A DNA stretch of 64,000 nucleotides from Apoda limacodes (lineage: Eukaryota > Arthropoda > Insecta > Lepidoptera > Limacodidae), in assembly GCA_946406115.1 (NCBI GenBank), contig OX291551.1:8122001-8186000 (forward strand), written 5' to 3'. The notes beneath the pieces were generated by a model, which was not told the origin of the DNA, did not search any database, and worked only from the letters and a program-made list of their open reading frames with translations. Positions 15,484 through 18,922 of the stretch are shown piece after piece (position 1 is the first letter of the stretch; each line of letters opens with the position of its first letter). The position numbers were made by a program, and so were the translations under genes.

Positions 15484-15510
15484 GGGTGGTTCCACAAAAT
15501 TTGGTTAACT
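15484..15510 (+). repeat. Left terminal inverted repeat
   Basis: 27 bp starting GGGTGGTTCCAC, identical to the reverse complement of 18191-18217. Confidence 0.85.
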
Positions 15511-15663
15511 TGGTGTTTGCATCTATATTTACAATTATATTAATCTTATTTATTATTTGTAATTACTAAGCGATATTACAAAGTTCATTTAATTTGGACA
15601 CTCACTTTGGTATATATCACAATATTTTTTATTCCCAAAAATCGACATTTCGCACCTTAAATA

Positions 15664-16054
15664 TCAGGCCCTAGCCATGTAAAATTTCCCAAATTAAGTT
15701 AAAGTTCCACCTTAATTTTAATTCTATTATAGTTATTGGACTCAATTCAGCGTGAACACATTTACTATTACATCACTAACTTTATCATTACGATTTAAAT
15801 TGAAATAAAAATATTTTTCACTACATTATTTCAAGTCAAAAAATGTAAGCGATAAATAATATCAGGCCCTAGCCACTTATGAAATTTAAAAATACGCGGC
15901 ATAAGGCGGTTTCCACAAATTGCTCATTCGAAAGCAACGATGTGAAATTTGCTGTAAAAACGAACTATGCTGCGTCGGCCATTTTGTTGTTAGTGCGGTC
16001 GCCGACTTTGCCGCGGACACACGTGCTGTGCCAGTCAAACTCTCAGGCCCTAGG
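15664..16054 (+). promoter_or_regulatory. Three left-end motifs TCAGGCCCTAG
   Basis: TCAGGCCCTAG occurs at 15664, 15862 and 16043, all in the same orientation. The first two share a longer context (ATATCAGGCCCTAGCCA). The third runs directly into GTAAGT, forming a consensus splice donor at 16053/16054. Repeated subterminal motifs of this kind in DNA transposons are usually transposase-binding sites; that role is inferred. Confidence 0.6.
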
Positions 16055-16200
16055 TAAGTCGTTTTAAAGATAGTAAATTAATAATTGTTCTCATTATTAA
16101 TTGTATGTTTGAGCTTTCTCTGCCTTGTTATTATAATCACCTGTTTGTTTTGATGATTTTTAAATATAATAAGTTTTATAATAACATTTAGCTTTGTTTT

Positions 16201-16270
16201 GTCAGTCCCTAGACCGTCAGGCCCTCGTCGTAAAAGTGCCTAGGGCCTGACGCAACAGCTAGGGACTGAC
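16201..16270. promoter_or_regulatory. 70-bp palindrome built from four motif copies
   Basis: The order is GTCAGTCCCTAG (16201), GTCAGGCCCTCG (16216), a 12-nt loop, CTAGGGCCTGAC (16240), CTAGGGACTGAC (16259). Each arm holds one GTCCC-type and one GGCCC-type motif, so the arms mirror each other. It ends 55 bp before the ATG at 16326, a natural place for an autoregulatory operator or promoter, though that is inference. Confidence 0.6.
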
Positions 16271-16719
16271 GGTCATATTGTGTGATCTATGGTTTTAAAT
16301 TAAAAAGCCGTATTTGTTGTAGAATATGGCGCCTAGAAAGAAAAAAATATTGTCTAAAGAAGAAATCGCAATAAAAAGTCAGAACAAGCAAAGAGACGGT
16401 TGGAAAAAATTAAAAATGACCCTTTTTACTGGCAGAGTACAAAGAAAATGAACGACTGAAATATCTAAAAAAAAAGGGTCAAAGGAAATTTGTAAAGAAC
16501 ATGACTCCACGTTAACACAGAAAAGCACGAAAAAAATGGACAGTCTACTCATCAGAGTATAGAAAAAAACAAAAGGTTTGTAGAAATACTGATAAATACA
16601 TGCAGCAAAATACGCCGCCGTCATCGGACGAGGAAAGTATTTCTGACGTTCCTGTAATAAATGAGGAAAGAAGCGCTGAAGCGAGAAGAAGTAGTATTGC
16701 TCAACGGAAGAAAAAAAAA

Positions 16720-17303
16720 CCGGCCCAGTGCGAGTTGGACTCGCGCACCGAGGGATCCGTACCTACCACCATTCATATAATCTACAAACAAAAGCAAAAA
16801 TATTTTTATATTTGTGTTGATTGATTGAAAGGTAAATTGCGGTTTACGATTTATGACGAATTAAAAAAAAACTACTTACTAGATCTTGTTCAAACCAATT
16901 TTCGGTGGAAGTTTGCATGGTAATGTACATCATATTTTTTTTTTAGTTTTATCATTCTCTTATTTTAGAAGTTACAGGGGGGGCACACATTTTACCACTT
17001 TGAAAGTGTCTCTCGCGCAAACTATTCAGTTTAGAAAAAAATTATATTTGAAACCTCAATATCATTTTTGAAGACCTATCCCACACGCATGGGATTGATG
17101 AAAAAAAAAAATTTTTAAGCTTCAGTTCTAAGTATGGGGAACCCCAAAAATTTATTGTTTTTTTTTCTATTTTTGTGTGAAAATCTTAATGCGGTTCACA
17201 GAATACATCTACATAAGTTTTTAACAGTATAGCTCTTATAGTTTTGGAAAAAAGACGCTGTGACAGACGTCCGGACAGACAGACAGTCCCCTAAAATAGA
17301 ACC
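16720..17303 (+). repeat. Full-length GGTTCCGTA dispersed repeat inserted in the transposon gene
   Basis: Begins CCGGCCCAGTGCGAGTTGGA, then GCACCGAGGGATCCGTACC, and runs to a GACAGACGTCCGGACAGACA tail. It separates two parts of one basic reading region, so it arrived after the transposon gene. Fragments of the same family lie at 15.0, 40.7, 51.3, 54.6, 56.5 and 60.8 kb. Confidence 0.65.
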
Positions 17304-17324
17304 TAGAAACTTGAAAATAGAATA

Positions 17325-17849
17325 ATGAAGAGGAAAAATTTAGTCATTGATGATTTAAGGAAAAAACTTGCAATAGAACAACAAAGAAAAAAAAGACTGA
17401 AACGTAGGATGATAAAAGTAGAGAAAGCACTCACACCAAAAAGTAAAATTGAAAAAATGGCAAAACACCCTAATCAGAAAACAGAATTGGTAAGAAAAGC
17501 ATTGTTTGGCGAGAATTTTCTGGCACAAATTTTAGAAAAAAAATTGAAACACACCAAAAAAAAGCCTGCTTATAAACGATTTTCTCCAATGGCACATAAA
17601 TATAAGATATGGAGATTTGGAAAGAAAGCTATTACAAACAAAAGGATGGGATTTAATCATACAAAATATAAAGCTAAATGCAACAGAAAGAGACTTGAAG
17701 AAATTATTCACAGGTTTTATGAAGATGACAACAATAGTCGTTGTGCGGCAGGAAAAAAAGAATGCATTACTCTCAGAAAAATAAAAAACAAAGAAGATAT
17801 TTACTGGATTTCCTACCTCAATATAATTGAGTATTTTGGATATTTTTAA
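17325..17849 (+). CDS. 174-residue basic protein, second half of the transposon gene
   Basis: An uninterrupted ORF starting MKRKNLVIDDLRKKLAIEQQ. Residues 1-35 form a Lys/Arg-rich amphipathic helix or coiled coil. Residues 36-120 continue highly basic with VRKALFGENFLAQILEKKL. Residues 125-155 contain RFYEDDNNSRCAAGKKECIT, a compact Cys-containing block. The last 20 residues (YWISYLNIIEYFGYF) look like out-of-family read-through, so the original protein was probably longer. No catalytic DDE/D triad is visible; a DNA-binding N-terminal half of a transposase is the most economical reading. The ATG at 17325 is simply the first after the inserted repeat. Confidence 0.5.
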   Translation: MKRKNLVIDDLRKKLAIEQQRKKRLKRRMIKVEKALTPKSKIEKMAKHPNQKTELVRKALFGENFLAQILEKKLKHTKKKPAYKRFSPMAHKYKIWRFGKKAITNKRMGFNHTKYKAKCNRKRLEEIIHRFYEDDNNSRCAAGKKECITLRKIKNKEDIYWISYLNIIEYFGYF

Positions 17850-18008
17850 GATTTGGACTGATTATAGATTTAAGATTGTAAATACGTACAGAATTACTTA
17901 TAATTGGACTGTTTATAATAACAATAAGTTATAATATGAGAGGTATTTGATTTTGTTTTGGTTAATTTTGCAATAAAAATGTGATTAAACATAACAGCCG
18001 TATTTGGC

Positions 18009-18040
18009 GTCAGTCCCTAGCATGTCTCGTCAGTCCCTAG
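18009..18040 (+). promoter_or_regulatory. Two right-end motifs GTCAGTCCCTAG
   Basis: Copies at 18009-18020 and 18029-18040, 20 bp apart and in the same orientation; a decayed third (TGACTGGCCCTTTTAG) follows near 18087. All right-end copies are of the GTCCC type, whereas the left end uses GGCCC. Confidence 0.6.
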
Positions 18041-18190
18041 AACACTAATTTATAAAAAACGTAAATTACTCCTAAAATACTCCTAATGACTGGCCCTTTT
18101 AGATACAACAAAGCAGATGTTATTCCCACATTATGGAATAAAAATTAACTGTTATCATATAAAAATATCTCCGTTCAAAAAAAGCCCAAG

Positions 18191-18217
18191 AGTTAACCAA
18201 ATTTTGTGGAACCACCC
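18191..18217 (-). repeat. Right terminal inverted repeat
   Basis: Exact reverse complement of 15484-15510. Confidence 0.85.
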
Positions 18218-18443: not shown

Positions 18444-18922
18444 CAGTAAAACCCGCTTAATACGATCACGCTTAATACGATTTCCCGTATAATAGTTCCT
18501 GCAACTTGATGCATGTTTCCATAGAATTTGTCACGCTAATACGATTAGTAACCCGTTTATTACGCTATCTGGCCCTGGATTTAAACTTAACTTAATTTAA
18601 AAAGCATAGTCACTGAAGGTAAAGACGAATGTATTGTATTTTTTTGATGAAAAATTACAAACAAAAAATCTAACAAAGTTTGCTAACGAGCTTCTGCTAA
18701 AAGTCTGCATCAAAATATCTTCGGAAATGTGATTATTTTAAGTATTTTAATTTTAAAAATATGTAAATGATGTATTGTGAGCGTAATGTGATAATTAAAC
18801 ACACAACATTAGTACAGTAGTAGTAATATGTTTTATTTTCGCTATCCCGCTTAATACGCTTTCCCGCTTAAGATGCGTTTTTGGCTGGGTCCCTATGAAA
18901 TAGTCTTAAGCGGGTTTTACTG
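18444..18922. mobile_element. Tigger/pogo-like MITE with TA target duplication
   Basis: Both ends read inwards CAGTAAAACCCGCTTAA (17 bp), and TA flanks each side (18442-18443, 18923-18924). These are the hallmarks of pogo/Tigger elements. Internal CGCTTAATACG[A/C]TTTCCCG repeats occur near both ends (about 18468 and 18852). 479 bp, non-coding. Confidence 0.85.

Follow-up and report, generated by a model that had tools for sequence, protein, structure and literature searches.

How a transposase recognizes the two ends of its element, and whether it can tell them apart, is the question raised by a DNA transposon at positions 15,484 to 18,217 of a 64,000-nucleotide stretch of the lepidopteran Apoda limacodes (assembly GCA_946406115.1, contig OX291551.1, positions 8,122,001 to 8,186,000; hereafter the window). 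The original prediction described perfect 27-bp terminal inverted repeats (TIRs) enclosing nine copies of the motif TCAG[G/T]CCCTAG, and proposed that two motif types mark the left and right ends for a transposase. Having searched the 800-Mb, 31-contig assembly, we consider it likely that the element is a non-autonomous cut-and-paste copy, and that the transposase of each related family recognizes a private word of 9-12 bp at nine fixed positions.

A nine-site plan shared by six families with different words

The window element is a real DNA transposon, as had been claimed, but a broken one. Its TIRs are identical over all 27 bp by sequence comparison, and the TIR with up to two mismatches has 40 matches genome-wide, compared with none for a reversed control. 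Between the TIRs lie eight exact copies of the motif and a ninth with one mismatch (TCAGGCCCTCG at 16217), all inside the element, and no further match with zero or one mismatch was found anywhere in the window. The three left copies are all of the GGCCC type and the central palindrome, an inverted cluster in ++-- order (T, G, G, T), carries both types, both as predicted; the right copies are likewise of the predicted GTCCC type, but the positions first given for them, 18009 and 18029, were one base early (true starts 18010 and 18030).

Sorting 20 of the loci from a protein search of the same genome (71 matches), together with ten more, into families (Table 2) revealed one plan common to six of them (A, to which the window copy belongs, B, C, D, E and G), each with its own word. 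The plan comprises three left sites, all on the plus strand, which in most families lie ~180, 380 and 560 bp in from the left end; a ++-- cluster of four that precedes the gene; and two right sites with a spacing of 18-21 bp, the second of which (R2) ends ~160-185 bp short of the right end in A-E and ~515 bp short of it in G. Family ends seen begin GGGT or GGGC. Five loci (L043, L052, L053, L057 and L058) were not placed in any family.

Transposases of A (P0026), B, C and G share 31-44% pairwise identity, while that of D is closer to A (67% in the best stretch) and that of E matches at 36% over residues 14-696. Comparison by blastn of the non-coding left and right regions in five families (A, B, C, D and G) gave matches of only 14-31 bp, and the TIR itself accounts for one of these. 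Within each of these five families the nine sites are on average 0.75-0.96 identical to one another (11 positions); the best-offset identity of the same position between families is 0.44-0.76 (highest for B-C) versus 0.77-0.96 within families by the same measure. That the words change from family to family while their places stay the same suggests binding sites evolving in step with the transposase, and the motif is, judging from these comparisons, very probably a transposase-binding repeat. This binding role, an inference in the original prediction, gains support from the recurrence of the same nine-site layout with other words in the sister families.

Alternatively, the words might serve a host DNA-binding factor that activates the transposase promoter, and not the transposase itself. 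Such a regulatory array would fit the way their positions are conserved around the putative first exon and intron; yet a shared factor should keep the word constant across the families of one genome, whereas each family has its own, and we regard this explanation as improbable.

Table 2. Families sharing the plan: loci, words, offsets from the left end, spacings (bp), and splice donor abutting L3 or sharing its final bases
Family	Loci	Word	L1/L2/L3/C1 offsets	L1-L2	L3-C1	R1-R2	Donor
A	window, L047	TCAG[G/T]CCCTAG	180/378/559/718	198	159	20	GTAAGT
A2	L030					20	
B	L032, L033, L034, L037, L038, L041, L042, L044, L045, L046, L051, L059	T[A/C]CCCTGGC	185/383/572/729	198	157	18	GTAAGT
C	L031, L035, L036, L040	ACAGTCCCCTG	181/379/570/724	198	154	21	GTAAGC
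D	L039, L048	TCAGTCCNTTGK	143/320/504/709	177	205	20	GTGAGT
E	L049	CTCAGGATCCTG	180/374/564/721	194	157	20	GTAAGA
G	L050, L054	CTCYGTCAC	232/429/607/763	197	156	20	GTAAGT
H	L056	TCATTMCGGGAAC			155		
I	L055	TNATTACCRTTT	181/379/none seen/725	198			

Controls on the array

A matrix built from the four cluster sites alone ranked the five outer sites 1-5 in A, C and D, and placed them within ranks 1-8 in B, 1-7 in E and 1-13 in G. Cluster scores exceeded all 200 dinucleotide shuffles in the window copy, L030, L031, L033, L039, L048 and L050. A 500-base scan gave 62/200 shuffles for L049, the cluster of which lies farther out; in a wider scan E scored 36 and I scored 37, against a best of 33 each in eight mononucleotide shuffles. 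The cluster of L055 was likewise found only in the wider scan, and L043 was too short upstream. By the same scan family H was marginal, its score of 35 equalling the best of its eight shuffles, and no cluster was detected in four divergent loci, L052, L053, L057 and L058 (33 each, versus shuffle bests of 33, 34, 33 and 33). Motif positions in family A showed no excess conservation (0.933 versus a background of 0.948). Counting against private words at fixed positions are three weak sites, L3 in B, L1 in G and L3 in D, each with two mismatches and accepted partly by place.

A splice donor at the third left site

The third left site (L3) coincides with a splice donor in six of six families (A, B, C, D, E and G); H has GTGTAA at the corresponding place, while in I the donor is present and the word not recognizable. 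Among the families examined for it, A, A2, B, C and D have a pyrimidine-rich acceptor directly 5' of the ATG, and G plausibly has one too. From the donor at L3 and the acceptor before the ATG, the four-site cluster would sit in an intron of the 5' untranslated region (5'UTR). A gene model of the beetle Henosepilachna vigintioctopunctata (P0017) continues from QAL as if spliced directly after the same word; its 5' stretch matches window positions 15927-16052 at 64% over 42 amino acids (aa) and ends in this word, the window segment itself being probably non-coding here.

Words placed in this way might also act as RNA, such that L3, C1 and C2 of the pre-mRNA pair with C3 and C4, hide the donor and regulate splicing with no DNA-binding role. 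Consistent with this, L3 lies on the donor, complementary copies lie within the putative intron, and pairing between cluster partners is complete or almost complete in A, B and C. However, partners 1:4 and 2:3 each carry two mismatches in A2, D and G, and L1, L2, R1 and R2 fall outside the putative intron. Despite the good pairing in A, B and C, the unpaired partners of A2, D and G disfavor an RNA hairpin as the selected feature, and we consider an RNA role of this kind very unlikely.

Motif types as a left/right code

According to the proposed code, GGCCC marks the left end and GTCCC the right end, and the transposase pairs unlike ends only. Segregation in family A is perfect, 3:2 (left GG, right GT), and is shared by descent within A; in addition, the right pair of A2 is GT/GT, and the QAL read by the beetle model at L3 fits the GG type. 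In family E, with another word, left and right bases are disjoint as well (CAGGATCC/CAGAATCC on the left, CAGTTTCC at both right sites; sites at 384, 578, 768, 4711 and 4731 of L049), which hints at a left/right type code. Since A and E alike have a T after CAG on right sites and none on left sites, we keep the idea as a possibility for these two lineages. The code is nevertheless not general. B, C, D and G have no disjoint position, leaving two of six scorable families with one, compared with 0.8 expected (P=0.17), and in B and C the spellings are largely common to left and right sites. Cluster order is T, G, T, G in A2 versus T, G, G, T in A. Exclusive pairing of unlike motif types thus appears unlikely, while site number and orientation could still distinguish the ends.

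The window copy and its full-length relatives

The window copy is non-autonomous and internally deleted, and it belongs to a family of DDE transposons that duplicate 4 bp of their target. The translation of 16326-17849, originally read as a single protein, is in fact interrupted by stop codons, by frameshifts and by the insertion of a ~570-bp repeat (Table 1). Searches by tblastn with P0026 placed residues 17-141 at 16373-16710 and residues 141-304 at 17307-17786; the 5' part begins MAPRKKK, and the catalytic domain that should follow the second part is missing. This lost domain is present in ~858-aa proteins of other insects and in a longer copy, L029, which is insert-free and keeps residues 413-858, interrupted by stops; a portion of the right-end sequence comes after them, and no right TIR of L029 was detected. 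In light of L029, the amplified copies look like deletion derivatives, and most of them contain all or part of the insert. The insert, which starts near GGCCCAGTGCGAGTTGG and ends near GACAGACAGACAG, travelled along during amplification of the non-autonomous family; insert-only matches occur at 14 other genome places among the matches listed (88-91% identity).

At least 26 related places, including the window copy, were found in the genome among the best candidates scored; some labels denote one and the same place (L026 = L008; L028 = L006; L022 within L029; L047 = the L029 place). Clean 4-bp duplications flank 8 of 15 family A copies with both ends (TGTA, ATCT, AATA, TAAC, GTTT, TTAA, ACTA and ACAT); the other seven, including the window copy (flanks agta/agac), lack one. 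Reading of target duplications, suggested originally as a check, gave 4-bp duplications in B (7 of 8) and in the one locus read in each of C, D, E and G as well. The 18 tallied duplications, with E excluded, are 83% A/T.

Full-length relatives encode one DDE transposase of ~850-890 aa, in which a basic, helical N-terminal part precedes a catalytic core of integrase-like type and, at the C-terminus, an SH3/Tudor-like domain. Three acidic residues are kept among relatives, D500 (54/55 aligned letters), D578 (54/54) and E613 (54/55), and the predicted integrase-like fold is consistent with an RNase H-like catalytic domain. In P0026 the C-terminal domain spans ~763-836, with residues 785, 803 and 814 mostly aromatic (VIA-align). 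Some of the 71 own-genome matches have stop-free open frames of 854-892 aa. A Pfam search returned nothing above cut-off, a PDB sequence search found no credible chain (antibody rows, best E 0.00089, were judged chance), a literature text search for the protein motif DFSENY found no paper, and no relatives were confirmed in viral or prokaryote contigs. One transposase relative, P0076, is catalogued within a metagenome assembly of Wolbachia pipientis and is probably host contamination.

Between L2 and L3, GGCGGTTTCCACAAATTG (15908-15926) resembles by eye the TIR start GGGTGGTTCCACAAAATTTG and may be an internal end-like site. Outside the element, the sequence from 18446 to 18520, beginning cagtaaaacccgcttaatacgat, resembles a pogo/Tigger-type transposon end.

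Table 1. Features of the element, in window coordinates
Feature	Position	Strand	Remarks
Left TIR, 27 bp	15484..15510	+	identity to right TIR; genome-wide matches
Site L1, TCAGGCCCTAG	15664..15674	+	
Site L2, TCAGGCCCTAG	15862..15872	+	198 bp from L1
Site L3, TCAGGCCCTAG	16043..16053	+	splice donor GTAAGT directly after
Putative 5'UTR intron	16054..16322	+	from sequence: donor GTAAGT at L3; acceptor TTTGTTGTAG just 5' of ATG
Cluster site C1, GT type	16202..16212	+	
Cluster site C2, GG type	16217..16227	+	one mismatch
Cluster site C3, GG type	16240..16250	-	
Cluster site C4, GT type	16259..16269	-	
Decayed transposase, 5' part	16326..16712	+	tblastn, P0026 residues 17-141; frameshifts and a stop
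Inserted dispersed repeat in transposase gene	16713..17286	.	whole or part in most sister copies; not in L029
Decayed transposase part	17307..17849	+	P0026 residues 141-304 (to 17786)
Site R1, TCAGTCCCTAG	18010..18020	+	
Site R2, TCAGTCCCTAG	18030..18040	+	177 bp from right end
Right TIR, 27 bp	18191..18217	-	identity to left TIR

Proposed mechanism and its implications

Under the private-word reading, a transposase would bind the words of its own family and gather on them, the TIRs being used for cleavage. The outer sites would bring the ends together, with left and right marked by more sites on the left versus two on the right, plus their shared orientation. Transposase bound to L3 and the intronic cluster could in turn restrain its own transcription or splicing, providing negative feedback. 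In A, B, C and G, L3 and C1 are separated by ~143-148 bp, and ~115-205 bp lie between most other adjacent sites; from these spacings we venture the bold reading that one nucleosome may lie between neighboring sites. Taken further, and put forward here as a tentative and rather doubtful extension, the rigid nine-site plan would be kept while transposase and 9-12 bp word change together, giving a genome with mutually orthogonal pairs; the nucleosome-spaced array would be read by a transposase with an SH3/Tudor-like tail, and L3 with the cluster would couple binding to the element's own splicing and transcription.

How new DNA transposon families escape cross-mobilization by their relatives is an old question. 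In this one genome, six families display the same plan with different words, some being multi-copy and some having open transposase frames; turnover of the recognition code is thus directly testable through word and transposase swaps between families. Furthermore, the splice-donor site and intronic cluster offer a concrete hypothesis for self-restraint by a eukaryotic transposase.

Comparison with known systems

Several superfamilies were considered and set aside. piggyBac and Kolobok elements duplicate TTAA, whereas the duplications here are varied 4-mers, with TTAA in 1 of the 18 tallied; hAT elements have 8-bp duplications, compared with clean duplications of 4 bp here; and CACTA (En/Spm) elements have CACTA termini and a 3-bp duplication, compared with GGGT/GGGC termini and 4 bp. 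En/Spm nevertheless offers a parallel for the array: repeated words of ~12 bp close to its two ends are bound by the element's own protein TNPA, which also regulates the element promoter. En/Spm differs in its CACTA ends, its 3-bp duplication and its separate binding protein. The nine-site layout is described in no title or abstract start among the literature matches listed, subscription papers, including the Sola paper, being outside that scope.

The original prediction could name no superfamily. The kind of element is now clearer, a Sola2-like transposon with a DDE transposase and 4-bp duplications, and the Sola2 label fits by structure, which and not sequence is its basis. As described in the accessible part of PMC3627910, Sola2 elements have 4-bp AT-rich target duplications, short TIRs and an 888-aa transposase; set alongside by description and not by sequence, the present families share AT-rich 4-bp duplications, short TIRs and a transposase in the ~860-890 aa range, and differ in the nine-site array, which that part of the description lacks.

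In the hAT element Herves, an insect transposase binds one short subterminal motif at both ends, and related transposases bind different sequences, as is seen in the accessible text of PMC3143072, where no conserved plan of several sites, one at a splice donor and a cluster in an intron, is stated. Hermes, another hAT element, likewise has short subterminal repeats that are bound asymmetrically at its two ends, and a palindromic pair far in the interior of its left end; its word is AAG(T/C), with one end holding 17 copies and the other 14 (PMC10368747), versus nine copies at fixed places in the element described here.
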